DNA of 64,000 nt from Burkholderiales bacterium (GTDB taxonomy: Bacteria; Pseudomonadota; Gammaproteobacteria; Burkholderiales; Burkholderiaceae_C): the NCBI GenBank assembly GCA_028868825.1, contig JAGWTU010000001.1:186001-250000 (forward strand), in the 5' to 3' direction. The notes under the pieces are model-generated. The model made no database searches, was not told where the DNA came from, and saw nothing but the letters and a program-made list of their open reading frames with translations. This document shows, piece by piece, positions 7,648 to 40,010 of the stretch; position 1 is the first letter of the stretch, and each line of letters starts with the position of its first letter. Both the position numbers and the translations under genes were made by a program.

Positions 7648-7740
7648 CGTGCAGAACTTGCACGTTTAGCCTCAAAAGACGGGTTTGGCGCAGAGGGGTG
7701 CGGCCAGGCTCTGCGCGTAACGTGCAACTCTTGCACGTTT
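7648..7740. promoter_or_regulatory. Two 20-bp palindromic operator-like repeats upstream of the integrase
   Basis: CGTGCAGAACTTGCACGTTT (7648-7667) and CGTGCAACTCTTGCACGTTT (7721-7740) are near-identical inverted repeats (CGTGCA-N4-TTGCACG) whose starts lie 73 bp apart. The second overlaps the predicted integrase -35. A half-like GTGCACAAG lies just before the start codon. They could be repressor operators or recombinase binding sites. Confidence 0.6.
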
Positions 7741-7760
7741 GGCCTTCATCGTGCTATTCT
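7731..7760 (+). promoter_or_regulatory. Candidate integrase promoter
   Basis: TTGCAC (7731-7736), an 18-bp spacer, then TATTCT (7755-7760). The -35 sits inside the second palindrome, so binding there would block transcription. Transcription would start only a few bases before the ATG at 7770, leaving almost no leader. Confidence 0.35.
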
Positions 7761-7769
7761 GTGCACAAG

Positions 7770-11828: not shown

Positions 11829-11834
11829 GACGGA

Positions 11835-14800
11835 TCAGGGGTGCTCGAAAGCCCAGGTGTCGGCCAGCAACTCGGCCTGCGCGATCACCTTGTCGGTGGC
11901 CTCGGCCTGCTTGTCCGGCGGGTACTTGTGCTTGGCGAGCAGCACCTTGACCATGGCGATCATGCGGGCGCGTGCCGACTTGCGGTTCTGCCAGTTGATG
12001 GTGGCGGACTTCCGGAGCTTGTCGGTCAGTTCCTGCGCCAGTGCTCTGAGCACCGGGTGCCCGAGTTCACGCACCGCCGACTCGTTTTCAGTCAACGCCT
12101 GGTAGAAGGCAAACTCCTCCTCCGACATGTCGTCGGGCGGCCTGGACGAGTTGATCTCACGGGCCAGCCTGATCAGCTCTTCGATCACCTCGACGGTGGT
12201 CAGAGCGCGGTTCTGGTACTTGGCGATGGCCTCTTCGAGCTTCTGGGTGAACTCCTTGCCCTGGATGGCGTTCTTCTGGCTCCGGGACTTCACCTGGTCG
12301 GCGATCAGGCGCTCCAGCAACTCGGCCGCCAGGTTCTTGGTCGGCATGGCCTGAATCTGCGACAGGAACTTCTCGTCGAGGACCGAGATGTCGGGCTTGC
12401 CGATTCCCAGCGTGCCGAAGATATCGTTGACGCCCTCGACCAGCACGCCCTTGGCCACGAGTTGCCGCAGGGCGGCTTCCTTCTCCACGCGCGATCGCGT
12501 CTCGCCGGAGCGGGTGAGCTTGATGAGGGACACGCGCACGGCCTGGAAGAAGGCGATCTCGTCGCGTAGCGCCATGGCAGCTTCCAGCGTGCCGGCGAGG
12601 GCCTGCGCCTTGTTCAGCTTCGCCACCTGATCCAGGAAGGCACGGACGCCCCTGTTGCGGCCCTTCTCGTCAGGCTCGGGGTCAACCTCCAGCACATGCT
12701 CCATCGCTGGGCCCAGCAACGCCAGCGCCCTTTTCGGCGCATGGAAGCCGTCGTACTCGAAGCCGTGGAAGAACTCCTTGCGGATCACGTCGAGGGTGTC
12801 CAGCAGAATCTTCAGTGCCTCGCCGGAGGTGTCGACCGGATCACGCTCGCTGTGAGCGTCGCGCGTGTACTGGCGGATGGCCTTCTTCAGTTCCTCGCCG
12901 ATGCCGATGTAGTCGACGATCAGTCCACCGGGCTTGTCGCGCCAGATGCGGTTGGTGCGGGCGATGGCCTGCATCAGGCCGTGGCCCTGCATGGGCTTGT
13001 CGACGTACAGCGTGTTGACCGGCGGTGCATCGAAGCCGGTCAGCCACATGTCGCGCACGATAACCAGCTCCAGCTCGTTGTCAGCGTCCTTGAAGCGCCT
13101 TTCGATCTGCTTGAGCTGCCGGGTGTCTGTGCGGTGCGGCTGGAGATGCGCCGGGTCGGCCGAGTTGCTCGTCATCACGATCTTGATGCGGCCGGTGTTC
13201 ACATCGTTGCCGCGCCACTCCGGACGCAGCTTGACGATCTCGTCGAACAGACGCACGGCGGCCTCGCGAGAGATGGCGACGATCATGGCCTTGCCTGCCA
13301 TCGTTTCCTTGCGGGCTTCCCAGTGCGCCACCAGGTCGGCGGCTAGCGTCTCCAGGCGGCCGTCAGCCATCGCGATGGCTTCGATGCGAGTGAAGCGCGA
13401 GACCGTGGTGTTTTGGGTGGACTCGTCCTCGTCCTCGGTGGCTTCGAGGAACTCGTCCATCAGGGACTGCTTCTCGGCCTCGTTGAACCGCAACTCGATC
13501 ACCCGCGATTCGTAGCTGACCGGGACGATCGCTTCGTCTTCCTGGGCGGCGACCATGTCGTACACGTCGACGTAGGTGCCGAACACTGCCTCGGTGTCGC
13601 GGTCGTCGAGGCTCACCGGCGTGCCGGTCATCCCTAGGTAGATGGCATGCGGCAGGGCGTCGCGCATGTACTTGGCCATGCCGTAGCGCGTTTTGCCGGT
13701 GTCGGCACTGATGTCGGCCTTGAATCCGTACTGCGTGCGGTGCGCTTCGTCGGCGATGACCACGACGTTCGAGCGCTCGCAGAGCACAGGCACGCTGGTC
13801 TTGCCGGCTTCCGGCGCGAACTTGTTGATGGTGGTGAAGAAGATGCCGCCGGCCTCGACCTCGGACAGCTTCTTGCGAAGGTCGTCGCGGCCATCGGCTT
13901 GCTTCGGCGTCGCGCGCAGGGACTCGCCGCAGTCGGCGAAGGTCTCGAAGAGCTGACCGTCCAGGTCCTTGCGGTCGGTGACGAGCACGACGGTTGGGTT
14001 TTCGAACTCCGGGCGGTCGCGGAGCGCCATGACGTAGAACAGGGCCAACAAGGACTTGCCGGAGCCCTGGGTGAACCAGATAACGCCACCTTTCCCGTCC
14101 TTCTTGTGCACAAGTGCGTCGACCGCTCGCTCGACGGCGCGGAGCACGCCATGGTATTGGTGCCACTGCGCGACGATCTTGAAGCTGGCGCCACCGTTGC
14201 TGCCGCCGTACGCCACGAAGCCACGGAAGAACGACAGCAGCGTGGCGGGCTCCAGCAGGCCTCGAATCAACACCTCCAGTTCGAGCAACCCCTTGGCGGC
14301 CTTCTTGCCGCCGAGCAGCCGCCACCGCGAGTGCCTGCCGAGGTCGGCCGTCAGCGAGCCGTAGCGGGCCACAGTACCGTCCGAGATGACGTTCAGCAGG
14401 TTGAAGAAGAACAGCTGGGGGATGTCGGCCTTGTAGGTCTGAATCTGGTTGTAGGCAGCCTCGATGTCGGCGTTGATGTCCGCAGGGTTCTTCAGCTCGA
14501 CCACCACCAGCGGAAGGCCGTTGACGAAGAGAACGATGTCGGGGCGACGAATCTTCTGCCCGTGGACGGTGAACTGCTGCACCGCGAGGAGATCGTTGGC
14601 GCCGTCGAAGTTGATGACCCGCACGCGAAGGACGGTCCGGCGGCCATCGTCCTCGATCCGATCCAGAGGGACTCCGTTACGCAGCCAGTCGTAGACCTCC
14701 TTGTTGCCGTCCACCACCGACTGGGAGCCGTACCCGGAGACGAGGGCGACGGCCTGCTCGATTTCCTTCTGGGTGAGCGCCGGGTTCAGCTCAGTGACTG

Positions 14801-14960
14801 CATCGCGAAGGCGTGGGACAAGCACGACATCGGAGTACCGGCGCCGGGCCTCATGTTGGCCGCCTGGCGACAGGTCGTCACCGTGAATGCTGGTGTAGCC
14901 AAGGCCGGCGAGCCATTCGAGGGAAGCCTGCTCGACGATGGACTCGTCAACCGATTTCAT
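11835..14960 (-). CDS. hsdR: Type I restriction enzyme, R subunit (HsdR)
   Basis: 1041 residues, the motor and nuclease of a type I restriction system. The N-terminal PD-(D/E)xK nuclease is visible as DIVLFVNGLPLVVVELKNP (Asp and ExK). The SF2 motor follows: Walker A in QGSGKSLLALFYV, DEAH box in VVVIADEAHRTQYG, motif III in GMTGTPVSL and motif VI in AIARTNRIWRDKPGG. A long helical C-terminus is expected to bind the MTase core. The ATG at 14960 is 134 bp after hsdS. All core motifs are intact, so the enzyme is probably active. Confidence 0.95.
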   Translation of the reverse strand: MKSVDESIVEQASLEWLAGLGYTSIHGDDLSPGGQHEARRRYSDVVLVPRLRDAVTELNPALTQKEIEQAVALVSGYGSQSVVDGNKEVYDWLRNGVPLDRIEDDGRRTVLRVRVINFDGANDLLAVQQFTVHGQKIRRPDIVLFVNGLPLVVVELKNPADINADIEAAYNQIQTYKADIPQLFFFNLLNVISDGTVARYGSLTADLGRHSRWRLLGGKKAAKGLLELEVLIRGLLEPATLLSFFRGFVAYGGSNGGASFKIVAQWHQYHGVLRAVERAVDALVHKKDGKGGVIWFTQGSGKSLLALFYVMALRDRPEFENPTVVLVTDRKDLDGQLFETFADCGESLRATPKQADGRDDLRKKLSEVEAGGIFFTTINKFAPEAGKTSVPVLCERSNVVVIADEAHRTQYGFKADISADTGKTRYGMAKYMRDALPHAIYLGMTGTPVSLDDRDTEAVFGTYVDVYDMVAAQEDEAIVPVSYESRVIELRFNEAEKQSLMDEFLEATEDEDESTQNTTVSRFTRIEAIAMADGRLETLAADLVAHWEARKETMAGKAMIVAISREAAVRLFDEIVKLRPEWRGNDVNTGRIKIVMTSNSADPAHLQPHRTDTRQLKQIERRFKDADNELELVIVRDMWLTGFDAPPVNTLYVDKPMQGHGLMQAIARTNRIWRDKPGGLIVDYIGIGEELKKAIRQYTRDAHSERDPVDTSGEALKILLDTLDVIRKEFFHGFEYDGFHAPKRALALLGPAMEHVLEVDPEPDEKGRNRGVRAFLDQVAKLNKAQALAGTLEAAMALRDEIAFFQAVRVSLIKLTRSGETRSRVEKEAALRQLVAKGVLVEGVNDIFGTLGIGKPDISVLDEKFLSQIQAMPTKNLAAELLERLIADQVKSRSQKNAIQGKEFTQKLEEAIAKYQNRALTTVEVIEELIRLAREINSSRPPDDMSEEEFAFYQALTENESAVRELGHPVLRALAQELTDKLRKSATINWQNRKSARARMIAMVKVLLAKHKYPPDKQAEATDKVIAQAELLADTWAFEHP

Positions 14961-15094
14961 GGTGTTGTGCCCGGAGACAGTCGATGCATCGATCTTGGTG
15001 CGACTGAGTTTTCGTTAGGCGTGAGCTTATCTCCGAAAGCGTAGCGCCGGCCTGCGACGCGCCAAGCTCTCGGCAGGGAGGTAGCAAGATCGAT

Positions 15095-16444
15095 CTACGC
15101 ATCTGCCGACTCGACCAACTCTTCACCCTCGGCAACTGGTAGCGCACCAGAGATTAGCTCGGGTAGGAACGCGTCCCTCACGGCTGCGAGCTTCCTCGCC
15201 TGAACTGCGTTCGTGATACGCCGCGAGATCAGAGGTTCAAACACACGGTCCAATGCCGCAATAAGTTCCGGCGGCGGCACAGCCGCCATAGCCTCCGATA
15301 GATGGCCTCGTTGAATATGGCCCATGGTGGTGGCCTTGTTCGCTGCTATCTCCCTGAAGCGGCCAAGGTGCTGTCGAGTGGCGAAGTAGTAGAACCACTT
15401 TGGAAGCCTGTCCGATGTGACCTTGAACAGATGCTGGTTCAGGGCACCTTGGCCGCCGCACCAGAACTCGACCTCAAGTGAACCGGACCAAGAGAACAGG
15501 ACATCGCCATCGTTGACGACGTACTGTGGACGCAGTCGGGCGCTAGCGCGGTCTGCGCCGAAGACGTTGCCGGCACGTAGTTGCGCAATCTTGATGACCG
15601 GCAGGAACTCGGTGTCGGATTCGGGCGGGAACTTCTGGAGCGCTAGTCCGTTGAGGTAGTCGGCAATCGCGTCGAGGGGACGGCGCGTCCAGCCTCTGGG
15701 AAGAAGGCCATGTTTGTCTTTGGAAAACTCGTGTGGGAAGAGACGCGTGATCTGGGGTGCAATGCCGGGTGCATCGCAACATTCTGCATTGGCAAGTACA
15801 GGATCGAAGTCAACCAGACACGACTGGAAGATGCTCCCGGCGATTGCCTCCAAGGTCCTGCCGGTGTCGTCGAGCAGATCGATGCGGTTATTGATCGATG
15901 ACGCAAGCTTCGCGATGCGTCTTTGGACGGCAATCGGCGGCAAGGGAACGTCGAAGGATTCGATATGGCCCTTGGTGATCGCTCTGCGACTACCTCCTGC
16001 GTTGAAAGATTCGATGTAGGCCTTGGTTCCGGACAAGGTCAACCACGCTAAGAGGTATTCCGGCAAGCAAAGAGACCTTTCGGTTCTGATCAGCACGACA
16101 TGCTGGTTGACGCATGCAGGCAGGATGCGAGTCGGGACAACGCAAGATCGTCCAAATGTGGAGCCATCGCCGGTGATGTTCAGAAGTACGTCGCCGGCTT
16201 GAACTTCAGCGCCTGCAAGGTCCTTCGCTTGATCTACCGAGATATTGGCGAGTCCGGTTGAGGTGAACCGGTGGTCAAGCACGTTCTGGCTGCGGATCAA
16301 GACGTACCGCTCTCTGGTCGGCAGATAGCTCTCCGCGCCGCCCCGTGGCGTCGCACCCGATCGAATCTTGGTGGTGATGGCGCCGAGTTTGGCTACGGGC
16401 CAAGCCGCGCGAGAACTCGTGCTGATTCCGGGCTCAGACTGCAT
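15095..16444 (-). CDS. hsdS: Type I restriction-modification specificity subunit (HsdS)
   Basis: 449 residues; sets the DNA target of the M and R subunits. Two target-recognition halves are visible, each ending in a conserved helix: IESFDVPLPPIAVQRRIAKL near the middle and LSEAMAAVPPPELIAALDRV near the C-terminus. The first TRD begins WPVAKLGAITTKIRSGATPRGG and the second PRGWTRRPLDAIADYLNG. The ATG at 16444 overlaps the end of hsdM by 11 bp; the frame is open further upstream to 16585, but that stretch lies inside hsdM. It is less GC-rich than the flanking core genes. Confidence 0.92.
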   Translation of the reverse strand: MQSEPGISTSSRAAWPVAKLGAITTKIRSGATPRGGAESYLPTRERYVLIRSQNVLDHRFTSTGLANISVDQAKDLAGAEVQAGDVLLNITGDGSTFGRSCVVPTRILPACVNQHVVLIRTERSLCLPEYLLAWLTLSGTKAYIESFNAGGSRRAITKGHIESFDVPLPPIAVQRRIAKLASSINNRIDLLDDTGRTLEAIAGSIFQSCLVDFDPVLANAECCDAPGIAPQITRLFPHEFSKDKHGLLPRGWTRRPLDAIADYLNGLALQKFPPESDTEFLPVIKIAQLRAGNVFGADRASARLRPQYVVNDGDVLFSWSGSLEVEFWCGGQGALNQHLFKVTSDRLPKWFYYFATRQHLGRFREIAANKATTMGHIQRGHLSEAMAAVPPPELIAALDRVFEPLISRRITNAVQARKLAAVRDAFLPELISGALPVAEGEELVESADA

Positions 16445-18080
16445 ATCCGAACGAGGCCATTTGGGTCCGAATCTCTTCGTCGAGTGAGGTGCCCAACAGC
16501 ATCTGCTCGGACAGTTGGTCGGCAAGCCGCTGCATTCGATCAGCGAAAGGCTCTGCCATGTTGTCGACCTCTTGAGTCCCGACATAGAGACCAGGGGTCA
16601 GGAGGAAGCCTCGCTCAGTCACCTCGGCGATGCTGGCTGAGTAGCAAAGGCCGGGCACGTCCTGATACGCCACCCCGTCGCTGAAGTCGGTCTCGCGCCA
16701 TCGGTGGTAGGTGAGAGCGATTCGCTGAAGGTCATCGTCGGTGAACTCGATCTGCATGCGAGAGAGACGGCCGCTTGCAACTTTGCGAGAGTCGATGAAC
16801 AGGATTTGCTTCTTTCGATCTCTCTTGCCGTTGACGCCTGCCTTCTTGTCAGCAGACAGGAACCAGAGGCACGCAGGGATCGTGGTGTTCGAAAACAGCT
16901 GTCCCGGCAAGGAGACCATGCAATCAACCACGTCAGCAAGAACCATGTTCTTTCTGATCTCGCCTTCCCCCGACTGCTGAGAGGACACGGAGCCGTTCGC
17001 GAGAACGATGCCTGCTCGTCCACGACTCGACAAGCGCGACACCATGTGCTGTAGCCAGCCGAAGTTCGCATTGCTCGCCGGAGGAATGCCGAATCGCCAC
17101 CGAGGGTCTTCCTTCAGCTTGTCGCCATCCCAGTCAGAGATGTTGAACGGCGGGTTGGCGAGGATGTAGTCGGCTCGCAGCGTCTTGTGTTGATCGTTCG
17201 TGAAGGTGGAGCCGTAGGTCTGACCGAGATCGCCATCCAGGCCGTGAACTGCGAGGTTCATCAGGCACAGACGCCGCGTGGCCGCCATCAACTCCTGGCC
17301 GTAGACCGCAAGGTCGCCTCTTCTGCCAAGGGTCTTCTGGTGAGCGTCTTTGAACTTCGCCGATTGGACGAACATGCCGCCGGACCCACAGGCCGGGTCG
17401 TAAATCTTCCCTTTGAACGGCGCCAGAATTTCGACGAGCAAGTTGACGACGCTCTTCGGCGTGTAGAACTCACCGGCCTTGGCACCTTCGTTCAGCGCGA
17501 ATTGCCCGAGGAAGTATTCGTAGACTTCGCCGAAGACATCGCGGCTGCCGTGCTGCTTCGGATCGAACTTGAGCCGGGCAACCACCACCATCAAGTCGTT
17601 GAGCTTGCCGGGGCCGAGGGCCAACCGTGAGAACTCGCGATACAGGACGCCCTTGAGGGTCGGATTCTCGGCCTCGATTTCACCCATGGCCGTATCGAGA
17701 AACTGCGGTAGCTCGGGGTCGGTGCCCTTCTTGAGGAGCACGCCGAAGTGGGAATCGGGCGGCACCCAAAAGACATTGTCCTGGTCGTAGAAGGTCTTGT
17801 CGCGGACGAAGCTGGCTTCCGCGTCTGTACGCGTTGACTGGTCCTCGATGTAGATGTCGGACGCCGGGTCGGCCAGGCGCAGTCGGATGACCTCGGCATG
17901 GGCGTCGAAGAGGTCCGAGACGTACTTGAGGAAGACGAGGCCGAGAACGGGGTACTTGTAGTCGGCGGCCGATACGGAGCCGCGCAGCTTGTTCGCGGCG
18001 TCCCACAGGGTCTTCTTGAGTTCTTCGTTGGTCATGAGGCTCAGATTGATTGATTCGGTGCGGTTCACGGGCGGCGTCAT
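16434..18080 (-). CDS. hsdM: Type I restriction-modification DNA methyltransferase (HsdM)
   Basis: 548 residues, N6-adenine methyltransferase subunit. An N-terminal HsdM_N helical domain (MTNEELKKTLWDAANKLRGS) precedes the SAM motif I in DPACGSGGMFVQSAKF (near residue 225) and catalytic motif IV in ILANPPFNISDWDGD (near residue 310). The ATG at 18080 overlaps the recombinase stop (ATGA); MTNEEL at residue 16 is an alternative start at 18035. With hsdS it forms the modification enzyme that protects host DNA. Confidence 0.95.
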   Translation of the reverse strand: MTPPVNRTESINLSLMTNEELKKTLWDAANKLRGSVSAADYKYPVLGLVFLKYVSDLFDAHAEVIRLRLADPASDIYIEDQSTRTDAEASFVRDKTFYDQDNVFWVPPDSHFGVLLKKGTDPELPQFLDTAMGEIEAENPTLKGVLYREFSRLALGPGKLNDLMVVVARLKFDPKQHGSRDVFGEVYEYFLGQFALNEGAKAGEFYTPKSVVNLLVEILAPFKGKIYDPACGSGGMFVQSAKFKDAHQKTLGRRGDLAVYGQELMAATRRLCLMNLAVHGLDGDLGQTYGSTFTNDQHKTLRADYILANPPFNISDWDGDKLKEDPRWRFGIPPASNANFGWLQHMVSRLSSRGRAGIVLANGSVSSQQSGEGEIRKNMVLADVVDCMVSLPGQLFSNTTIPACLWFLSADKKAGVNGKRDRKKQILFIDSRKVASGRLSRMQIEFTDDDLQRIALTYHRWRETDFSDGVAYQDVPGLCYSASIAEVTERGFLLTPGLYVGTQEVDNMAEPFADRMQRLADQLSEQMLLGTSLDEEIRTQMASFGYAV

Positions 18081-18670
18081 GCCGGCGCTTTTGGCGCAGC
18101 CGGTTGTGGGTCTTGTATGCCGGCGCGGGAAAGCGCCGCGTTCAACGTGACTCGGCTCACGCTGAAGTGCCGGGCAACTTCGGCCTTGGTGATGTTCGGG
18201 TCCGACAGCATCGCCGCCGCCTTGCGCACGTCGGTCGGTGAGAGCGCGTGCTTGCGACCACCCTTGCGCCCGCGAGCACGTGCGGCGGCAAGGCCGGCGA
18301 TCGTCCGCTCTTTGATCAGGCTGTGCTCGAACTCGGCGAGGGCGCCGAAGATGTGGAAGACCAGGCGCCCGCCGGAACTGGTCGTGTCGATGGACTCGGT
18401 CAGAGACCGAAAGCCGACGCCGCGTTGATTGAGGTCATGCACGATCTCGACGAGGTCCTTGAGAGATCGAGCAAGCCGATCGAGCTTCCAGACCACTAGG
18501 GAGTCGCCCTTGCGCAACGTGCGCAAGCAGGCGATCAGTTCCGGCCTGTCGCGAAAGGTGCCGGTCGCCGTCTCGTGGAAGACCTGTTCGCACGCCGCGC
18601 CGTTGAGGGCGTCGAGCTGGAGCTGGGGATTTTGGTCCTGGGTGCTAACCCGGGCGTAGCCAATGATCAT
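18077..18670 (-). CDS. Serine recombinase (resolvase/invertase family)
   Basis: 197 residues. Catalytic Ser lies in IIGYARVSTQDQNPQLQLDA, and the catalytic Arg cluster in LVVWKLDRLARSLKDL. FHIFGALAEFEHSLIKERT is the long E helix, and a C-terminal HTH (ITKAEVARHFSVSRVTLNAA) completes the Tn3-resolvase/DNA-invertase layout. The ATG at 18670 is preferred; a TTG at 18673 is also in frame. Its stop overlaps the hsdM start (ATGA), so it is the first gene of the hsd operon. No second hsdS cassette or inverted hsdS copy is visible, so an invertase role on hsdS is not supported here. Confidence 0.9.
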   Translation of the reverse strand: MIIGYARVSTQDQNPQLQLDALNGAACEQVFHETATGTFRDRPELIACLRTLRKGDSLVVWKLDRLARSLKDLVEIVHDLNQRGVGFRSLTESIDTTSSGGRLVFHIFGALAEFEHSLIKERTIAGLAAARARGRKGGRKHALSPTDVRKAAAMLSDPNITKAEVARHFSVSRVTLNAALSRAGIQDPQPAAPKAPA

Positions 18671-18672
18671 CA

Positions 18673-18693
18673 AACGTACCTTGTCTGTACGTT
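18673..18693. promoter_or_regulatory. Inverted repeat upstream of the serine recombinase
   Basis: AACGTAC (18673-18679), a 7-bp spacer and GTACGTT (18687-18693), a perfect 7-bp inverted repeat ending next to the recombinase start codon. It is placed to act as an operator or a recombinase binding site. Confidence 0.5.
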
Positions 18694-18711: not shown

Positions 18712-18837
18712 TTCCCATTGAGGCAACGACTTTCGGCCAAAACGAGCGCGACCGCGAGGGCGTACATCAAACGACCGTTTGTTTTCGGCCCCACCTGGTG
18801 AGCTGGGATGCCTACTCCGGCTGCCCACCCGAGAAGA

Positions 18838-18865
18838 TTACGATGTTTTATTCGTGGCCTATAAT
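18838..18865 (+). promoter_or_regulatory. Candidate promoter of the AAA ATPase gene
   Basis: TTACGA (18838-18843), a 16-bp spacer and a perfect TATAAT (18860-18865), 30 bp before the ATG. The surrounding AT-rich patch is unusual for this GC-rich region. The -35 match is weak. Confidence 0.5.
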
Positions 18866-18895
18866 TATGGCTCCGGAATAAAGAGAAATAACTCA

Positions 18896-20056
18896 ATGGC
18901 TGAAATCTACCGCCGCCCCGAGCTGGCCGCCCAGATGGCCAAGCAGCTCCTTCATCCTGGAGTCCTCGATGAGGGCCTTCGGTCTGGCTTGTTCCTCTCC
19001 GGCCTGCGTCGTACGGGCAAGACGACGTTCTTGCTGAACGACCTCATCCCTGCTCTCGAAGACGCGGGAGCGCTCGTGATCTACGTCGACCTCTGGAGCG
19101 ATACGCAGACCAGCCCGGCGGCGCTCGTACTGTCCGCAGTGAAGAAGACGCTGGCGGACCTTCAGACGCCGGCATCGAGCATCTTGCAGAAGCTCAAGCG
19201 TGTCGGCGGTGCCGACGTGGGCGCCTTCGGATTCAAGTTCGGGTTCAAGTTGGACAGCGTTGGCGCCGAGGGAGGTACGACGCTCGCGCAGGCCCTTACC
19301 GAAGTGGTCGATCAGGCCAAGACGGACGTGGTTGTGATCGTCGACGAGGTCCAGCATGCGATCACGTCCGAGGACGGCAACCAGATGCTTCTCGCGCTCA
19401 AGTCCGCACGTGACGCGATCAACCCGCGACCTGATACGCCTGGCCACTTCATCTTCATCGGAACGGGTTCGCACCGCGCGCTTGTTAGCGAACTGACCGC
19501 ACGCAGGAACCAGGCGTTTACTGGCGCCACTTCAGTGCCCTACCCGGTGCTGAACGGCGACTATGTCGAGCACCTCCTCAAGCGCCTTGCGCAGGAGGCG
19601 GCAGTTCCGCTGCCATCGGCCGCCGTTGCAACCCATGCGTTCGCGACCTTGGGCAACCGTCCGGAGGAAATGCTTAAAGCGCTTAGGCAGTTAAGGCACA
19701 TACCTCCCGGCGGAAACCCGGACGAACATTTGCCTGTGATCGCCGCGACGCTTCGGTCGGCTGCAGCAGACATCGAGTTGATGAAAGTGGAGCAGCTTGG
19801 CGGTCTCGCGACGGCGATCTTCGAGCGCATCGCTTCGACGGACGGCGACGCACGAGGAGTGTTCTCGTCGGAGGCGGCGGCCGAATACACGAAGGCCATT
19901 GGGCGAGAGGTGCGAGTCGAGGACATTCAACCGGTCGCGAACGATCTTCTTGCCGCGAACCTCATCATGCGTCGCGGGCACGGCGTGTACGGTGTGACTG
20001 ACCCGTTCGTTCAGGAAATCTGGCGGGAGAAGAAGGCGTTGGGATCAAAGGCTTGA
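18896..20056 (+). CDS. AAA/STAND-type ATP-binding protein
   Basis: 386 residues. Walker A is FLSGLRRTGKTTFLLNDL near residue 30, Walker B is DVVVIVDEVQHA near 145, and a sensor-1-like Thr lies in HFIFIGTGSHRAL. The C-terminal ~100 residues (VEDIQPVANDLLAANLIMRR, then HGVYGVTDPFVQEIW) resemble the winged helix that follows ORC/Cdc6-like and ATPase_2 domains. The nucleotide site is complete. It stands alone on plus, divergent from the hsd operon and 348 bp before the first TcmP gene. Possibly a defence ATPase or replication/transposition-type regulator; no partner is evident. Confidence 0.75.
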   Translation: MAEIYRRPELAAQMAKQLLHPGVLDEGLRSGLFLSGLRRTGKTTFLLNDLIPALEDAGALVIYVDLWSDTQTSPAALVLSAVKKTLADLQTPASSILQKLKRVGGADVGAFGFKFGFKLDSVGAEGGTTLAQALTEVVDQAKTDVVVIVDEVQHAITSEDGNQMLLALKSARDAINPRPDTPGHFIFIGTGSHRALVSELTARRNQAFTGATSVPYPVLNGDYVEHLLKRLAQEAAVPLPSAAVATHAFATLGNRPEEMLKALRQLRHIPPGGNPDEHLPVIAATLRSAAADIELMKVEQLGGLATAIFERIASTDGDARGVFSSEAAAEYTKAIGREVRVEDIQPVANDLLAANLIMRRGHGVYGVTDPFVQEIWREKKALGSKA

Positions 20057-20404: not shown

Positions 20405-21586
20405 ATGGCAGGAGTAGTCCCGGGCATCTACGAAGGGCGTATCCCCGCCCTGGTCAAGCACACGCTGCTGAAGAGCTATCTCGAAAAGCTCGTCCTGATC
20501 ATCGGCATGAACGGCCGCAAGACAGGCAAGGCAGAAATCTGCTACGTCGACTGCTTCGCCGGTCCTTGGGGCTCGGACGACGAGGACCTGGACGGCACCT
20601 CGATTGCGCTGTCGCTCAAGACGCTCGCGGCCTGCAAGGCTGAGTTGGCCACGCGCGGCGTCGATGCGAGCATGAGAGCGCTCTACATCGAGAAGGACAA
20701 GGGCGCGTTCAAGAAGCTGGCCAAGTTCCTTGCCGAGCGTGCGACCTCCGAAGTCGAGCACGACTGCCGCAACGGCGACTTCGTCGACCTTCGCGACGAC
20801 ATCCTGAACTGGTGTGGCACGTCCGCCTTCACGTTCTTCTTCGTTGACCCCAAGGGCTGGACGCCGATCGTGATCGACGTGATGGAGCCGCTGCTCAAGC
20901 GCCCGCGAAGCGAGTTCCTGATCAACTTCATCTACGACTTCATCAACCGGACCATGTCGATTCCGGCGTTCGAAGCGGACATGCGCAAGCTGCTGCGGCG
21001 GTCTGTCGACGTGGAGGGCATGTCACCAAGCGAGCGCGAGAAGACTCTGCTGGGTGCCTACCGCGATGGCCTGAAGTCGTGCGTTCCGCCAGGACGCGGC
21101 GAGTTCCGGGCGAGGACTGCCTATGTCGGTGTGATGCACCCATCGCAGGAGCGAACCAAGTACCACCTGGTGTACCTGACGAGCCACCACACCGGCGTCG
21201 TCGAGTTCATGGAAATCTCGGAGAAGGTCGACATCGTCCAGGCCCGAGTGCGCGCAGCAACGAAGCTGGAGCAGAAGCAGAAGGCCACCGGCATGGGCGA
21301 CTTCTTCGCCGACGAGGCCGTGCCCGAGTCAGGTGAGGGCCGAAGCAGCCCAGACGATGTCGACGCGTACTGGCGCGACTATCTCAGCGGTGGCGAACGC
21401 CGCATCGACAAGGCGATGTTCGCGGACATCCTCGAAGCTACCGACTGGTTCCCCAATGAGTTGCAGGCATCGTTGCTCCGGCTCATCAAGGCAGGGATCG
21501 TGGTGAACCTCGACGACGCCACGTCGAAGCGCCGGTCAAAGCCGTTGCACATCGACAAGCTGGGCGAGCGTCTGAAAATGGCGTAG
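20405..21586 (+). CDS. tcmP: Three-Cys-motif partner protein (TcmP family), copy 1
   Basis: 393 residues. The TcmP family is named for its genomic association with the DUF5131 (Gp37/Gp68) three-Cys-motif proteins; its biochemical role is not established. The N-terminus (PALVKHTLLKSYLEKLVLII) leads into YVDCFAGPWGSDDE near residue 48, which resembles SAM-binding motif I of methyltransferases, and FFFVDPKGWTPI near 140, resembling motif IV. This suggests a Rossmann MTase-like fold. The C-terminus (DWFPNELQASLLRLIKAGIVV) may form a winged helix. AAGGGAGAG precedes the ATG. It is convergent with the minus-strand operon that holds the second TcmP, with only one base between the stop codons. Confidence 0.8.
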   Translation: MAGVVPGIYEGRIPALVKHTLLKSYLEKLVLIIGMNGRKTGKAEICYVDCFAGPWGSDDEDLDGTSIALSLKTLAACKAELATRGVDASMRALYIEKDKGAFKKLAKFLAERATSEVEHDCRNGDFVDLRDDILNWCGTSAFTFFFVDPKGWTPIVIDVMEPLLKRPRSEFLINFIYDFINRTMSIPAFEADMRKLLRRSVDVEGMSPSEREKTLLGAYRDGLKSCVPPGRGEFRARTAYVGVMHPSQERTKYHLVYLTSHHTGVVEFMEISEKVDIVQARVRAATKLEQKQKATGMGDFFADEAVPESGEGRSSPDDVDAYWRDYLSGGERRIDKAMFADILEATDWFPNELQASLLRLIKAGIVVNLDDATSKRRSKPLHIDKLGERLKMA

Positions 21587-21587
21587 G

Positions 21588-22172
21588 TCAGGTCTCTTCG
21601 CTGCGATCAAGAAACTGCAGCTTGAACTGCCAGCCTTCGAAGGTCGACACCATGCGGCCGAGTTCATCCCACGAGACCTCGCGACCATCGATGACCACCA
21701 TCGGGACACGATGGTGCTCGTCGGGATCGCTGTCGACAGTGCCGCGCAAGACGAGGCCATTGTTCACCTGCAGACCGTGCTCGGTGTCTTCAAGATGGGT
21801 GAGAGCAAGTGCCCGCCGCATCTTAGTGATCAGCGTGCCAAGCAAAGCCAGCGGATCATCGTCCGGTTCCCCGATCACCTGAAACCGATACCCAGCCGGG
21901 GAACCACCCTGCAGCTCGAATGCGTCGATTGCAACGCCGGGACCGAACAGGCGTGTCCGAAATCGAAACTCGTGTTCAAGGCCTCGCGCGTCGACCATGC
22001 GGACAGGTTCGAACGCCACGTGTTCGAAGCCCTGCAGACCAAGTTGCTTGGCGACGGTCTCATTGAAGCAACGACTGCAGAGCAGCCTGTATCCACATTC
22101 CATGGAGCCGTAGCTGACGCCCTCGTGGGCAACGATGGGCTGGTGGCAGCTTTCGCACGGGTTCGGCTTCAT
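21588..22172 (-). CDS. Zinc-ribbon protein of the TcmP/DUF5131 operon
   Basis: 194 residues. The N-terminus carries two Cys pairs (CESCHQP and CGYRLLCSRC) consistent with one zinc ribbon. The rest is a mixed alpha/beta region with FRTRLFGPGVAIDAFELQ, EDTEHGLQVNNGLVLRGTV and EHHRVPMVVIDGREVSWDE, and a C-terminus ending FEGWQFKLQFLDRSEET. I cannot assign it to a family with confidence. It starts 28 bp after the TcmP-2 stop and is the last gene of the operon. Confidence 0.7.
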   Translation of the reverse strand: MKPNPCESCHQPIVAHEGVSYGSMECGYRLLCSRCFNETVAKQLGLQGFEHVAFEPVRMVDARGLEHEFRFRTRLFGPGVAIDAFELQGGSPAGYRFQVIGEPDDDPLALLGTLITKMRRALALTHLEDTEHGLQVNNGLVLRGTVDSDPDEHHRVPMVVIDGREVSWDELGRMVSTFEGWQFKLQFLDRSEET

Positions 22173-22200
22173 ACCTGGTGGGTCTCGGGGCAGTCGCGGG

Positions 22201-23472
22201 TCAGATGGAGAACAGCGTTCGTTGCGGAGGCGACATGATCTGGTCGGTGTCCTTGATCTGCGCAGCGGAGCGACGCCGGCTGCCATCAGCCCCGACGATC
22301 TCGACGGCCTTCTCCGTGAGCAGCTTGCCGATCGACTCGCGGTAGATTTCCTTCGAGGCCGGCGAGCTGTTGCATGTGGTGGCGAACAACTCGCCGAAGC
22401 TGATGCCGGCGTCGTCGGCGTACACGAGTCGCGGAATCTGCTCGCCAAGTGCCGAGATGCTCGCGCGTCGAGCAACGTCGTCGAACTCGAAGCCCAGGCC
22501 CGATTGCCCCAGGAACGCGGCGTCGTGAACGGGGTCGTAGCCGACCATCTGGAACATGTCCAGGCCGGGGCCGCCGTAGTGGATGAACTGGTTGTTGTTG
22601 GCCCAGTGGACTTCCGTCATCACGTCACGAGCGCGGTGGTGCTGTGACATGTGGATGAGCCAATAGTCGCCATGGCCGCCACGGTTGCGGATGAAGAACG
22701 GCGTGAAGTGGCGGGCGCCGCAGTTCTCGACGAGCCGGCGATACAGCGTGCTCTGAAGCAGCAAGCGCCAGTCGCGGTCCGAAGCCTTGATCTCGTCCAC
22801 CGAACGGCCGCCGAAGATGTCGGGGATGCCAAGGCCGTCGAGCAGGTCCTTCATCTGGTCGCCGTCGTTGGCGAAGTTCATCAGCGAGTCGACGTTGAAC
22901 GTCAGGATGATCTCCGCTCGCGGCAGGGCCTCGAAAATCTTGCGCATCAGCTGCGTCGGCACATCCTTGTAGCCGTATTGGTCGAGCGCGAAGATGGAGC
23001 GGCCGTTCTTCGGGCTCTTCTTCTTGATGAACTCGATGATCGCGCCGGCCTTGTCCTGAAACCGAGCGTGATCGATGTAGATGCCCTTGCCGATCCTGTC
23101 GCCGTATCCATGCTCCTGCAGCACCTTCACGAGGTGCCCGTGCGCGTGAGCATCGGCTTCGGTGAAGAAGTAGTCGACCTGGAGTTGGACGGGTTTGCGC
23201 CGATCCTGGTTGATCCGGAACTCGGCTTCCCGGGTGGCTTCGAGGAAGATGAACGGCGAGCCCTTGACGGGCTTGCGGGTGTCGTTGTGGATGTACATGC
23301 CACCCCCAGCGAACCCATCGACCAGCGTGAGCTTCAGAACGTCCTGGTTGGGCGAGCTGACCAGGGTGTGGAAGTAGGCGGCAAGGTACGCCTCAAGAAT
23401 GCGGTGCTTGGCGACGCTGTGCTGCTGGATGAGGTCGGGGCCGTCCTTCCAGTTGTATTGCTTCAGCGTCAT
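22201..23472 (-). CDS. tcmP: Three-Cys-motif partner protein (TcmP family), copy 2
   Basis: 423 residues. The same plan as the plus-strand copy: N-terminal helix (HRILEAYLAAYFHTL), the motif-I-like LTLVDGFAGGGMY near residue 50, and FALDQYGYKDVP near 160 where the other copy has FFFVDPKGW. The two proteins are otherwise very diverged. It starts 8 bp after the DUF5131 stop, the adjacency that defines the family. In-frame codons upstream of 23472 lie inside the DUF5131 gene, so ATG 23472 is chosen. Enzymatic activity is inferred from motifs only. Confidence 0.85.
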   Translation of the reverse strand: MTLKQYNWKDGPDLIQQHSVAKHRILEAYLAAYFHTLVSSPNQDVLKLTLVDGFAGGGMYIHNDTRKPVKGSPFIFLEATREAEFRINQDRRKPVQLQVDYFFTEADAHAHGHLVKVLQEHGYGDRIGKGIYIDHARFQDKAGAIIEFIKKKSPKNGRSIFALDQYGYKDVPTQLMRKIFEALPRAEIILTFNVDSLMNFANDGDQMKDLLDGLGIPDIFGGRSVDEIKASDRDWRLLLQSTLYRRLVENCGARHFTPFFIRNRGGHGDYWLIHMSQHHRARDVMTEVHWANNNQFIHYGGPGLDMFQMVGYDPVHDAAFLGQSGLGFEFDDVARRASISALGEQIPRLVYADDAGISFGELFATTCNSSPASKEIYRESIGKLLTEKAVEIVGADGSRRRSAAQIKDTDQIMSPPQRTLFSI

Positions 23473-23480
23473 GCGTTCCT

Positions 23481-24227
23481 TCAGGCGTGGGCAGACAGTG
23501 CTGGCATGTCGTCCCAGGTGCGCCCTTGAAGCAGACGGCCATTGGCCTTCTTGGAGCGGCGCTTGCCATCGGCTCCCCAGCCGCCCCACTGCTTGAAGAA
23601 GAACTGCACTCCCTGGTCCTCACATTGTTGACGGACATTCTCGACCCATTCGATCTGCATCGGACGCGCCTTCGGCCCCGATTCTCCGCCGACGATCACC
23701 CAATGAATGCCCGTTAGGTCGAGAGCACCAACGTCCGACAGCAGCGGCTCCACCGACAAGAAGCGGATGCGGGCGTCGACCTGGCGCAACGCCGCGATAC
23801 GAGGAACGCCATAGCGCCGATCCTCGACGGATACACCGAGCCATGCGTTGTCGGGAACATCGCGGTTCCGGAAGAACGTCGCCATGCGATCTGCGCGCTT
23901 GGTCAGCACCTGGAAGGTGTGCTGCGGGCAACGGCGGATCACGTCGAAGACTTGGGCGATGTAGTTGTCGTCCACACTTTTGTGGAAGAGATCGGACATC
24001 GAGTTCACAAAGTACACCGTCGGCTTCTTGCGCGCCAGCGGCTCCGCCAGGCGCTCAGGCAGGATGGTGAGCTTGAAGCCGTTCTCGTAGCCCGGCGTAC
24101 CCATGGCCTGCAGTCGCTTGGCCATGCTCTCGGCGTAGCAGTGCTTGCACCCCGGCGAAATCTTGGTGCAGCCCACGGTCGGATTCCACGTTGCCTCGGT
24201 CCATTCGATCCTGCTTGCTTGAGACAT
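23481..24227 (-). CDS. DUF5131 (phage Gp37/Gp68) family protein with three-Cys motif
   Basis: 248 residues. The family hallmarks are all present: WTEATWNPTVGCTKISPGC then KHCYAE gives C-x6-C-x2-C, which resembles a radical-SAM [4Fe-4S] site, followed by YFVNSMSDLFH, VSVEDRRYGVPRIAAL, RIRFLSVEPLL, IHWVIVGGESGPKARPM and FFFKQWGGW. Family function is unknown; phages and mobile islands carry it. It starts 36 bp after the S24 gene stop and is followed by TcmP at 8 bp. All three Cys are present. Confidence 0.92.
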   Translation of the reverse strand: MSQASRIEWTEATWNPTVGCTKISPGCKHCYAESMAKRLQAMGTPGYENGFKLTILPERLAEPLARKKPTVYFVNSMSDLFHKSVDDNYIAQVFDVIRRCPQHTFQVLTKRADRMATFFRNRDVPDNAWLGVSVEDRRYGVPRIAALRQVDARIRFLSVEPLLSDVGALDLTGIHWVIVGGESGPKARPMQIEWVENVRQQCEDQGVQFFFKQWGGWGADGKRRSKKANGRLLQGRTWDDMPALSAHA

Positions 24228-24263
24228 GACGTTCTCCTAGTTCTTCAAAGTCAGTGCAGGCGT

Positions 24264-24854
24264 CTAGACGGCGTGGATCACGCGCGTCACGACGCCCCAG
24301 ATGTTCAGTTCGCTCTTGTCGCCGACTGGGATGTCGGCGAAGTCCGGGTTCGCGGCCTGCAGCAGCCAGCCGGTGGTGGTGCGCTTCAAGCGCTTGACGG
24401 TCAGTTCACCATCGACATCAGCGACCACGATCCGGCCGTCCTCGGGCGCTACGCCCCGATCGACGACCAGTTCATCGCCATCAGCGATGCCCGCGTCGCG
24501 CATAGACCACCCGGCCACCTTCATGACGAAGGTGCTGCTCGGGTCCCGCACCAGGTGCTTGCCGAGATCGACAGCGTCCTCTTGGTAGTCGTCGCCGGAA
24601 GTTGGTTTGCCGGCGCGGACTCGGCGGCCCAGCGCAGGCACGGAGGTCGCTGCGCGCATCGAAGCGATTGGCTTCAGCCCGCCGGTCTCATTTGGCGCCT
24701 GAGCTGTGCGCTTGACCTCATCCAGGTAGCCCACCACCACGGGAACGAGGCTCTGCGGCACCCGGACCGTCTTGGTGGGCTCGCCGTAGGCAGCCTTACG
24801 GCCGGCGCCCTGTCGGGTGCCGCCATGGCGGGGTTTGGTGGGCTCCGTGTGCAT
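24264..24854 (-). CDS. UmuD/LexA-like S24 autoprotease with N-terminal DNA-binding-like region
   Basis: 196 residues. The C-terminal half follows UmuD closely: an Ala-Gly cleavage site in RVRAGKPTSGDDY, catalytic Ser in VAGWSMRDAGIADGDELVV, and catalytic Lys in GELTVKRLKR. Unlike UmuD (about 24 residues before the cleavage site) there are about 80 residues upstream, with a basic GGTRQGAGRKAAYG and a strand-helix segment TKTVRVPQSLVPVVVGYLD that looks like half of a ribbon-helix-helix. No umuC is nearby. I infer a damage-responsive repressor of its own operon. A 20-bp operator-like site abuts the start codon. Confidence 0.8.
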   Translation of the reverse strand: MHTEPTKPRHGGTRQGAGRKAAYGEPTKTVRVPQSLVPVVVGYLDEVKRTAQAPNETGGLKPIASMRAATSVPALGRRVRAGKPTSGDDYQEDAVDLGKHLVRDPSSTFVMKVAGWSMRDAGIADGDELVVDRGVAPEDGRIVVADVDGELTVKRLKRTTTGWLLQAANPDFADIPVGDKSELNIWGVVTRVIHAV

Positions 24855-24873
24855 GATTCTGTGACGAAATCAA
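24854..24873 (-). promoter_or_regulatory. Operator-like motif copy C at the S24 gene start
   Basis: Read on minus, TTGATTTCGTCACAGAATCA. It matches copy B at 17 of 20 positions but in the opposite orientation, and touches the S24 start codon, so binding would block that gene. Confidence 0.6.
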
Positions 24874-24951: not shown

Positions 24952-25002
24952 AGATGCCAAGGGAGTTCATCCTGAGGCCTATAAGACATGCATTTCTTCG
25001 TC

Positions 25003-25085
25003 ATTTGCATGCAAGCAACTGCGATTTGCTTGACGACACGTCCGAAGGGACATACCATGCAAACAATGCGATCGTGCATGCAAAT
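25003..25085. promoter_or_regulatory. Inverted ATTTGCATGCA repeats around the RHH gene start
   Basis: ATTTGCATGCA (25003-25013) and its reverse complement TGCATGCAAAT (25075-25085) flank the Shine-Dalgarno and start codon; a further ATGCAAAC lies at 25057. This is the placement expected for autoregulation by the ribbon-helix-helix protein encoded here. Confidence 0.5.
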
Positions 25086-25503
25086 TGAGGCCAAAGACAT
25101 GAACAATGTCCACATGGAGTTCGACGAACTGCTGACGATGAAGGCGCTGATGTTCAAGGCGGACATCAGTGGCCGTACCAGTACCGGCTTCGCAGGTCGC
25201 ATTCTCGAACGCGACCCGGAGCAAGCGGAGGCGATCGGGATGAAGAACATCTGCTTCCGCATCGACCCGCTGCTGCAGGCGAGGTTCGAGGTCACGTTGC
25301 ATGCGCTTGGCATGTCGAAGCAAGAGGCACTTTCGGAGGCCCTGCACGAAATGCTGAACCAGTTCGATGCCAAGCTGAATCAGATTGGCGTCGGGCCTAT
25401 CAACTACGAAAACAGGCTACGTGAACTGGGTTTCGAGTTGGGGCCGGAGACCGAGCACGGTCGAGCGCTCATGCGCGTAGATCAGCCGAAGAAGGGAGCA
25501 TGA
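25057..25503 (+). CDS. Ribbon-helix-helix DNA-binding protein (RelB/Arc-like), first gene of a pair
   Basis: 148 residues. A ribbon-helix-helix-like core is visible near residue 65: strand NICFRIDPLLQARF, then helices VTLHALGMSKQEALSEAL and HEMLNQ. This resembles RelB/DinJ-type antitoxins, though the N- and C-terminal extensions are unusual. ATG 25057 is chosen because GAAGGGA (25044-25050) lies six bases upstream; ATGs at 25078 and 25099 are alternatives. The gene overlaps the next by ATGA. Regulator of the pair by autorepression is an inference from the flanking inverted repeats. Confidence 0.6.
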   Translation: MQTMRSCMQIEAKDMNNVHMEFDELLTMKALMFKADISGRTSTGFAGRILERDPEQAEAIGMKNICFRIDPLLQARFEVTLHALGMSKQEALSEALHEMLNQFDAKLNQIGVGPINYENRLRELGFELGPETEHGRALMRVDQPKKGA

Positions 25504-25904
25504 GTATGGCCTTCGAATCCTTTGACGACCTCGCTCGCGTCGGCTTGAAACGCGCTGCGATGAAGGCTGCTCGGGTCATCGTGAAGTCAGAGTTCAGCGA
25601 CCGTCAGCGCCCACAGACGGTGTTCCGGTTCTCGGACGACCTCGTTGAGAGAGCTGGCTGGGTGCCAGGTCAAGACCGGATCGAACTGCTCATCGATCGG
25701 ACGGACATGGCGATCCGCGCACGCAAGGTTGCAGCCGGCGGCTACAAGCTCATCGGAAATGGATCGGCTCGGCCCTACCTAAAGTTCACCGCCGCGCGAG
25801 GAATGCCAGTGTCTGACGAAGCGTCCGAGGCCGTCGATGTTGTCGTTGTGGGCGGCGAAATCATGTTCGTGTTGCCATCGGGCGTGCGGCTGTCGGCCGC
25901 ATGA
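25500..25904 (+). CDS. Uncharacterised protein, second gene of the RHH pair
   Basis: 134 residues, translationally coupled (ATGA) to the RHH gene. Visible segments are RPQTVFRFSDDLVERAGWVP, DRIELLIDRTDMAIRARKV and VVVVGGEIMFVLPSGVRL, giving a beta-rich pattern. No signal peptide, membrane segment or nuclease motif is recognised. The order (small DNA-binding protein, then coupled partner) resembles a toxin-antitoxin cassette but also many plain regulator pairs. Its 3' end overlaps the convergent CoiA-like gene by 44 bp. Confidence 0.55.
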   Translation: MSMAFESFDDLARVGLKRAAMKAARVIVKSEFSDRQRPQTVFRFSDDLVERAGWVPGQDRIELLIDRTDMAIRARKVAAGGYKLIGNGSARPYLKFTAARGMPVSDEASEAVDVVVVGGEIMFVLPSGVRLSAA

Positions 25905-32727: not shown

Positions 32728-33246
32728 ATGCAACGCTTTCACTTCTGGGTTCTCGTCTCTGTCCTTCTAACCCCATTGGCGGGTTACGCTACCGAAGAGG
32801 GAGACTTGTGGGCTGCGAACGCAGCCATTGCGGCAGATATCGCAGTGCGAGCACACCCCAAAACTCGCTCGCTGTGCGCCGAACGTCCATGTCTTGGTGT
32901 GGCTCAATCGGAGCTTGGATTGCTCCTGATCGCGGCACGAGATACGAGACAGTCAGGCATTGCCCTAGCTGAACTGATTAGGTTTCGACTCGACGGCGGC
33001 TTGGCGGAGGATTACGCATGCATAGTGGCGAAGAAGGGGATTCAATTGAAACCCTATGTAGAGGCATTGAAACCGAGCTTGCTGCGTGATCGGTGCGTTT
33101 CCGAATACACCTCAGTCACTCGAAGCCAGCCGCAACTATTCGCTGCATCGGAAGCCGGGTTGGTTTGCCGATCCGTTGAGGACGTGACAGTCGCAAAGCG
33201 AGAACTGCTGAGTCTCCTGGTTTCGAGGCGAACATGCCAAGAATAG
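32728..33246 (+). CDS. Secreted protein of unknown function
   Basis: 172 residues with a signal peptide (FWVLVSVLLTPLAGYATEE). The mature protein is helical with several Cys (SLCAERPCLGVAQ, DYACIVAKK, DRCVSEY, GLVCRS, RRTCQE). Placed just after the RHS immunity gene it may be a second immunity-like or orphan immunity protein. ATG 32728 is preferred to the adjacent TTG. No family is recognised. Confidence 0.6.
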   Translation: MQRFHFWVLVSVLLTPLAGYATEEGDLWAANAAIAADIAVRAHPKTRSLCAERPCLGVAQSELGLLLIAARDTRQSGIALAELIRFRLDGGLAEDYACIVAKKGIQLKPYVEALKPSLLRDRCVSEYTSVTRSQPQLFAASEAGLVCRSVEDVTVAKRELLSLLVSRRTCQE

Positions 33247-39981: not shown

Positions 39982-40010
39982 CCCGCATAAGGCCAGTCAA
40001 GGCCGCTTGC

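Follow-up and report, generated by a model that had tools for sequence, protein, structure and literature searches.

A DUF5131-TcmP unit behind a predicted UmuDAb-type repressor in a Burkholderiales island: a candidate damage-inducible nucleic acid modification module

What do DUF5131 and TcmP proteins do together, and why might a gene of the kind that answers to DNA damage stand in front of them? The question is raised by a gene cluster in a stretch of 64,000 nt (hereafter "the window") from a Burkholderiales bacterium (GCA_028868825.1, contig JAGWTU010000001.1, positions 186,001-250,000 of the forward strand), where genes for an S24 protein, a DUF5131 protein, a TcmP protein (TcmP1) and a zinc-ribbon protein follow one another on the minus strand and a second TcmP gene (TcmP2) lies on the plus strand. 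A preliminary description had placed these five genes correctly, and its short minus-strand gaps were verified: 36, 8 and 28 bp, from S24 through DUF5131 and TcmP1 to the zinc-ribbon gene. It also stated that the DUF5131 and TcmP families are known to co-occur without an established function, and this agrees with PADLOC, which lists the pair as phage-defence candidates (PDC-M30 and PDC-M41) in an entry that carries no description. In the window both TcmP proteins match PDC-M30A (TcmP1 at 74 bits), DUF5131 matches PDC-M30B/M41B, and the A and B components are adjacent; the locus differs from the PADLOC candidate in having two TcmPs and a predicted S24 repressor with operators. The reading that we favour, with a probability of about 0.5, is that the unit is a damage-inducible nucleic acid modification module of mobile and defence islands.

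The link to damage comes from the S24 protein. Its N-terminal domain (GGTRQGAGRK...TKTVRVP) extends for about 80 residues before the cleavage site, and the corresponding part of UmuD is shorter. The cleavage site A81-G82 and residues S117 and K154 are invariant in all 18 aligned S24 proteins, with the spacing seen in LexA and UmuD. In BLASTP the protein matches a 203-aa S24 protein of an Acinetobacter locus (L260; loci are numbered L and genomes G) at 40% over 191 aa, with the aligned part starting at position 9 in the window protein and at position 8 in its counterpart, so that the N-terminal domain is included. L260 is a 328-kb record labelled Acinetobacter phage, and the DNA before its S24 gene carries TTGAAAATGTAACTTTTTCAA; from the genus, the length and this operator site we infer that the gene is UmuDAb. 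In A. baumannii, UmuDAb is described as a repressor whose operator has TTGA and TCAA arms flanking a GTnAC core (PMC11332147), and Acinetobacter UmuDAb is reported to cleave itself at Ala83-Gly84 using Ser119 and Lys156 (PMC4807011). The window protein resembles UmuDAb in its N-terminal domain, in its Ala-Gly/Ser/Lys pattern and in having TTGA-N4-GTnAC-N4-TCAA at its own divergent promoter region. It differs in that it precedes DUF5131-TcmP rather than controlling umuDC or ddrR, in that one of its operators overlaps the start codon, and in that it comes from the Burkholderiales; according to a review, UmuDAb belongs to the Moraxellaceae (PMC9578287).

The S24 protein had been called UmuD-like. 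The family assignment stands, but the role of UmuD probably does not: the match is to a repressor, and a search with the UmuC protein of L015 found no UmuC relative in the window at E 1e-5, so that for the window a UmuD of polymerase V was ruled out. As far as sequence can indicate, the protein is probably a UmuDAb-like repressor. An S24 of the window's type does adjoin UmuC in L201. Further UmuDAb-type S24 genes, from genomes of the same order (L169-L173), have related but different palindromes near their starts (for example TTGAATTCGTCACGGAATTCA in L171), which suggests a wider family of such switches.

Sites of the UmuDAb operator format with at most one mismatch number three in the window, where 0.02 would be expected: two at the S24 promoter (Table 1) and a third at 33176-33196, away from it. 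The exact form, TTGA-N4-GTnAC-N4-TCAA, occurs at one place in the whole 5,837,552-base assembly, which is operator 2, and the switch is therefore probably local. At the start of the S24 gene, the variant TTGA-N4-GTnAC-N4-TCAT is found in 16 of 16 GTDB loci with a UmuDAb-type S24, and in G164; across the 268 loci examined it is otherwise confined to copies of the window's own stretch. The DNA upstream of this conserved start-codon operator diverges between loci. Sites with two to three mismatches to GATTTCGTCACGAAATC lie upstream of a divergent CopG-like gene in L003, L005, L011 and L019, and L013 has one further operator-like site, with one mismatch to GATTTCGTCACGAAATC. The gene next to the CopG-like one encodes a 134-aa protein that is 88-90% identical in L003, L005, L011 and L019; operator 2 may govern both genes. 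For UmuDAb, the divergently encoded gene is that of the corepressor DdrR, and in the window a CopG-like gene has this position. Control by an E. coli-type LexA box (CTGT-N8-ACAG, at most one mismatch) was rejected: the window holds 19 such boxes where 17 are expected, and there is none between 17841 and 25600, the S24 promoter included. Taken together, the S24 protein and its two sites look like a UmuDAb-type repressor-operator pair acting locally.

How far does this arrangement recur? One scan of GTDB contigs with TcmP1 gave 19 related loci, mostly from Burkholderiales, and DUF5131 stands immediately before TcmP1 in every one of them. In 16 the first gene of the operon is the S24 with the long N-terminus; L020 has an S24 of a different type, and no S24 lies in the stretch covered for L017 and L018. 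TcmP2 is complete in 14, all of them with the long S24, so that S24, DUF5131, TcmP1 and TcmP2 recur together in 14 of the 19 loci. The TcmP2 copy of L014 is cut by the end of the sequence, and none was found in L012, L017, L018 and L020, although the sequences of L012 and L018 end within about 1 kb of TcmP1. L020 also has a third, short TcmP, without a Pfam match, between S24 and DUF5131. The zinc-ribbon protein behaves differently: it is found in none of the 19 loci, and its family occurs in five of 399 genomes of the order but beside DUF5131/TcmP only in the window's own genome, the other four having no DUF5131 match at all. The four-gene operon first proposed is thus reduced to S24, DUF5131 and TcmP1, which are kept together, and the zinc-ribbon protein was rejected as a member of the system. 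For S24, DUF5131, TcmP1 and TcmP2 the association is non-random; for the zinc-ribbon gene it is random. The second TcmP does face the operon from the plus strand in the window, as had been described, but it belongs to the unit: of the 14 loci that have it complete, 13 carry it in the same orientation as the operon, and it is inverted in L011 and in the window.

Within the unit the dependence appears to run one way. At E up to 1e-8, 21 of the 399 genomes have TcmP, and at E up to 1e-10, 41 have DUF5131. No more than 0.5 kb separates a TcmP match from a DUF5131 match in 20 of the TcmP genomes; in the remaining one, G164, the two are on different contigs, each near a contig end. The same holds for viral sequences, where 35 of 37 TcmP loci (17 found with a TcmP1 profile and 20 with a TcmP2 profile) have DUF5131 at most 0.8 kb away; L044 and L153, which do not, are truncated at the end of their contigs. 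The reverse scan covered the best 80 of at least 600 viral stretches with DUF5131; one of these, L045, was already a TcmP locus, and of the remaining 79 an iterated hidden Markov model recognised TcmP within 1.5 kb of DUF5131 in 42, leaving 37 with none recognisable at that distance. TcmP therefore goes with DUF5131, and not the reverse. Phage copies of DUF5131 (six records) lie near genes for ASCH, DUF4326, DUF1643, cysteine dioxygenase, PAPS-reductase-like and DNA methyltransferase proteins. In two loci (L026, a P. aeruginosa plasmid, and L256, from G317) DUF5131 looks broken, with matches split over frames, and the TcmP frames are intact.

Damage-type regulators are also found at DUF5131 loci beyond this unit. 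A second S24 class, with a LexA-like N-terminal domain, adjoins DUF5131 or DUF5131-TcmP in seven loci, on the opposite strand in L196-L200 and L256 and in line in L020. A GAAC-N4-GTTC palindrome stands at the start of the gene in six of the seven (L020 lacks it), which is the form of Gram-positive SOS boxes, and this class may be a second damage switch unrelated to the UmuDAb type. A survey was made of 37 of the 41 DUF5131 genomes (G065, G292, G306 and G329, which yielded fragments, were left out, as was a second DUF5131 of G057). An S24 or LexA-like gene lies within the DUF5131 stretch in 10 of the 37 (G000, G046, G376, G132, G349, G070, G057, G164, G073 and G317), against an expectation of 0.2-0.9 genomes if each 3.9-Mb genome is assumed to hold 2-8 such genes (P 2e-14 to 1.5e-8). 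In G073 the gene encodes a LexA-type protein, and in G057 it is paired with umuC some 5 kb from DUF5131. Elsewhere, umuD-umuC lies directly upstream of the unit in L015, and imuA and error-prone polymerase genes are near a plasmid copy in B. glumae. The S24 gene is not obligatory, but damage control is a recurrent feature of DUF5131-TcmP.

Restriction-modification (R-M) genes also lie in the neighbourhood. One directly follows TcmP1 in 6 of the 19 loci (MmeI-like in L009, L010 and L019; Eco57I-like in L013 and L017; N6_Mtase with Methylase_S in L020), and another does so in L206, outside the 19. All four that were tested with PADLOC (L009, L013, L017 and L020) are typed as IIG, at 249-865 bits. 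L009 and L010 have two differences over the unit, and the R-M gene of L019 differs from that of L009 at 314 of 2952 positions; with copies so related, there are fewer independent events than loci. In L011 the region 10779-14389, beside the inverted TcmP2, encodes an Eco57I/N6-methylase protein and one of 411 aa that matches nothing in Pfam, so that R-M genes flank TcmP2 too. The window (11835-18673) and L003 (12369-15865) have a resolvase and HsdM in common (84% and 74% identity), with 26% for the open reading frame of the HsdS region, and in these two a type I R-M system of apparently varying specificity lies beside the cassette.

Which chemistry could such a unit carry out? Both TcmP1 and TcmP2 exceed the curated cut-off of TIGR04474 (53 bits) and are thus TcmP family members. 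The methyltransferase-like motifs noted earlier are conserved: motif I reads VDGFAGGG in TcmP1 and VDCFAGPW in TcmP2, motif IV reads D164-Q-Y-G-Y and D-P-K-G-W, and D52, F54, G56, D164 and G167 are invariant in all 34 aligned TcmP proteins, of which 30 match a GMT-wHTH (winged helix-turn-helix) domain at E up to 0.1. In a search with the AlphaFold2 model of TcmP1 (predicted local distance difference test score, pLDDT, 85.4; predicted template modelling score, pTM, 0.87), 14 chains of the RlmJ family, one of them the DUF519 relative 2oo3, rank ahead of other methyltransferases (E 1.4e-8 to 7.4e-7). RlmJ is the N6-methyltransferase of A2030 in 23S rRNA. In an hhalign comparison, D164 of the TcmP profile is aligned with the DPP motif of RlmJ (79.7%, E 1.5e-5, over 53 columns; an unrelated pair of profiles gave 0.1%), and motif I is similar, with D-T-H-A-G-A-G in RlmJ and D-G-F-A-G-G-G in TcmP1. 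The differences are the replacement of DPP[YF] at motif IV by DQYGY or DPKGW, the extra C-terminal wHTH and the association with DUF5131. A Pfam scan gave no PF04378 (RlmJ) match to TcmP, and membership of the RlmJ family was rejected, the fold alone agreeing. TcmP1 is accordingly best described as a predicted RlmJ-like methyltransferase with a changed motif IV. Searched by sequence, no solved structure matched TcmP1 or DUF5131, and the matches to TcmP2 were weak (E 0.37 or worse).

This fold makes RNA the main rival target. The TcmPs would methylate rRNA or tRNA as RlmJ does and DUF5131 would act on the same RNA, for example so as to resist an RNA-targeting defence or toxin. Many radical-SAM (S-adenosylmethionine) enzymes modify RNA, and the best structural matches of TcmP1 and the aligned motif IV lead to an rRNA methyltransferase family. 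The C-terminal wHTH argues otherwise, being usually a DNA-binding domain, as do the R-M genes in the operon and the damage control, both of which point to DNA; moreover, the host encodes its own RlmJ elsewhere. We regard an RNA target as unlikely and prefer DNA, in view of the R-M operons, the wHTH and the likeness of DUF5131 to a DNA repair lyase.

That likeness emerges from the DUF5131 model. The family, also called the phage Gp37/Gp68 family, has a cysteine site (C20-x6-C27-x2-C30) that the preliminary description had compared with those of radical-SAM enzymes; it is real, the three cysteines being invariant in 25 of 25 and 30 of 30 proteins in two alignments, but its spacing is unlike the canonical cluster motif C-x3-C-x2-C. 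All 30 proteins match the radical-SAM model TIGR04471 (radical SAM mobile pair protein A; best E 9e-30), although the window protein scores 100.7 bits against a cut-off of 355. In a PDB search with the AlphaFold2 model (pLDDT 88.0, pTM 0.88), ranks 1-6 are spore photoproduct lyase (SPL; E 5.8e-4 to 1.9e-3, TMq 0.50-0.57) and rank 7 is lipoyl synthase, followed by ordinary TIM-barrel enzymes; the model thus appears to have a radical-SAM barrel fold, with distant matches. In both SPL and DUF5131 the third cluster cysteine is followed by tyrosine. The cysteine spacing differs (C-x3-C-x2-C in SPL) and there is no similarity at the profile level: a seven-sequence SPL profile gave an hhalign probability of 0.6%, and a Pfam scan gave no match to the SPL family PF20903. 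Membership of that family was ruled out on this basis, and the resemblance is one of distant fold. We describe DUF5131 as a predicted SPL-like radical-SAM enzyme; the folds of the two models fit SAM-dependent classes, which goes part of the way towards the structural check proposed in the preliminary description.

The SPL fold and the SOS context bring in repair as the next alternative: an SPL-like enzyme would reverse a damage product such as a dimer or cross-link, the TcmPs would recognise the lesion or finish the reaction, and the whole would be induced by damage as umuDC and imuABC are. Besides the six best fold matches, the damage-type repressors and operators at DUF5131-TcmP loci suit this account, as do the polymerase genes next to the unit in L015 and near the B. 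glumae copy, and SplB-like lyases have been described in SOS contexts (PMC3765255). The missing profile match to SPL counts against it. A repair lyase that depends on two partners resembling methyltransferases is, moreover, not known to us, and the occurrence on plasmids, on a Tn4652-type element and in phages, together with the coupling to R-M genes, suits modification better, so that we think a repair role doubtful.

The surroundings of the unit are those of mobile and defence islands. Tyrosine integrases lie in the window at 7698-8957 and 39537-41411, one of them beside a tmRNA gene, which is a common integrase attachment site; a tRNA-Sec gene is at 52539-52634 on the minus strand. In six Pseudomonas and Stutzerimonas plasmids (L027-L029, L033-L035), DUF5131-TcmP follows genes for a DNA-binding protein and a site-specific integrase. 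The annotation of L033 names these two Tn4652 cointegrate resolution protein T and recombinase, which makes a Tn3-family transposon a possible carrier of DUF5131-TcmP. A PglW protein (bacteriophage exclusion [BREX]/Pgl type, 1621.7 bits) is encoded upstream of the cassette in L004 (1702-5919). Rhizobial DUF5131-TcmP pairs (L030 and L036) lie near cyclase genes of the type found in cyclic-oligonucleotide-based anti-phage signalling systems (CBASS), L030 also near radical-SAM, HD, AAA and exonuclease genes, and the S. meliloti TcmP gene SMa2243 is listed alongside the Hna defence gene SMa2245 in one paper (PMC12445080).

Table 1. Features of the unit and its flanks in the window, with predicted roles
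Feature	Position	Strand	Remarks
S24 protein, predicted UmuDAb-type self-cleaving repressor	24264-24854	-	196 aa; PF00717, 99.8 bits
DUF5131, predicted SPL-like radical-SAM enzyme	23481-24227	-	248 aa; PF07505, 369.8 bits
TcmP1, predicted RlmJ-like methyltransferase with C-terminal GMT-wHTH	22201-23472	-	423 aa; TIGR04474, 230.6 bits
Zinc-ribbon protein, passenger	21588-22172	-	194 aa from its ATG; DUF7685-DUF7686-DUF7713
TcmP2, second methyltransferase-like protein	20405-21586	+	393 aa; TIGR04474, 93.9 bits; inverted here
Operator 1 (putative), TTGATTTCGTCACAGAATCAT	24853-24873	-	Overlaps the S24 start codon; 1 mismatch to TTGA-N4-GTnAC-N4-TCAA
Operator 2 (putative), TTGATTACGTGACAGATTCAA	24932-24952	.	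Matches the UmuDAb format exactly; lies in the region of the divergent S24 and CopG promoters
CopG-like gene, divergent from S24	24988-25503	+	Weak CopG match, E 0.0026; possibly under operator 2
Gene for 134-aa protein	25500-25904	+	Follows the CopG-like gene; possibly under operator 2
AAA ATPase, upstream of TcmP2 (context only)	18779-20056	+	31% relative in L021
Type I R-M (HsdR, HsdS, HsdM) and serine resolvase (context)	11835-18673	-	HsdM by translation and position

An abortive defence modelled on damage-induced CBASS operons, in which the derepressed operon would harm the cell's own or the phage's nucleic acid or translation after infection, is very unlikely: the PADLOC candidate status and the BREX PglW, type IIG, type I R-M and cyclase genes nearby speak for it, but a Pfam scan of DUF5131, TcmP1 and TcmP2, in which membrane helices were not looked for, found no nuclease or toxin domain, and that phages and viral contigs carry the pair as well speaks against a role directed at phages alone.

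Under the modification reading, an S24 dimer would bind the two 21-bp operators as UmuDAb does in Acinetobacter, and so silence two operons, its own with S24, DUF5131 and TcmP1 and the divergent one with CopG. Filaments of RecA on single-stranded DNA, which would form after damage to DNA or on the entry of a phage or of conjugating DNA, would trigger self-cleavage of S24 at A81-G82 through S117 and K154, and the promoters would be released. The cell would then make an SPL-like radical-SAM enzyme together with, where the genes are arranged as usual, two RlmJ-fold methyltransferases, with DUF5131 as the core and TcmP as the dependent partner. These would modify bases, most likely of DNA and less likely of RNA, and the modification may keep the element, or the host that carries it, safe at times when restriction enzymes are at work or foreign DNA is coming in. 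What the computation shows is the genes and their synteny, the conserved residues, the operator-format sites and, for DUF5131 and TcmP1, the folds; binding to DNA and repression by S24, its RecA-triggered cleavage, the use of SAM, a DNA target and any benefit are inferred. A more specific version, which we offer as speculation with the odds well against it, is that a selfish, local UmuDAb-type SOS switch controls a new two-enzyme hypermodification of DNA bases: TcmP would add a methyl or related group through its altered N-methyltransferase site, the radical-SAM enzyme would attack that group, and the modified base would be made only during DNA stress or entry, shielding the element from the restriction enzymes of the operon or working with them.

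Several observations weigh against the modification reading. The S24 gene is absent from all 18 plasmid loci in a profile search and present in just one of 116 viral loci (L042) in a phmmer search, and 3 of the 19 GTDB loci have no UmuDAb-type S24 in the stretch covered. The chance estimate for S24 beside DUF5131 uses assumed densities, and its genomes are not fully independent (G046 and G376 belong to the same genus); the L260 record that supplies the Acinetobacter comparison is labelled phage, its UmuDAb being identified by genus, length and site. The structural matches are distant, at 11-12% identity and a root-mean-square deviation of 5.7-6.4 A for SPL, with lipoyl synthase and then ordinary TIM-barrel enzymes next in rank and the SPL profile and PF20903 unmatched, and at 11-13% identity and TMq 0.34-0.38 for TcmP1 and RlmJ. 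The TcmP-RlmJ profile match is confined to its 53 columns, the TcmP2 profile alone compares poorly with RlmJ (6.9%), and N6-methylation of adenine cannot be assumed because motif IV is DxxG and not DPPY. The 37 viral DUF5131 loci without TcmP also belong here, as do the 13 of 19 loci with no R-M gene found right after TcmP1 and the near-identity of L009 and L010. Even so, the earlier suggestion of a regulated nucleic-acid-modifying system is supported by a predicted repressor with matching operators, a radical-SAM-like fold and a methyltransferase fold; that the system serves defence, the other half of the suggestion, is hinted at by the PADLOC candidate status, the R-M genes in the operon and the defence-rich setting.

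The pair itself was already known as a candidate. DUF5131 was not found by name in the literature searched, where searches on TcmP and DUF5131 yielded gene lists or unrelated abbreviations, and no report there joins UmuDAb to DUF5131-TcmP or to Burkholderiales. New with respect to that literature are the UmuDAb-type switch with its operators in Burkholderiales, the unit with two TcmPs, the one-way dependence and the fold assignments. The island holds two methyltransferase-like enzymes and an enzyme resembling a radical-based DNA repair lyase, apparently held off by a repressor that would cleave itself upon damage. A type of repressor and operator described for Acinetobacter would thereby extend to Burkholderiales, apparently in control of a single mobile operon there, and DUF5131 and TcmP, which are carried by phages, plasmids and a Tn4652-type element, each gain a testable enzyme class and a likely inducer.

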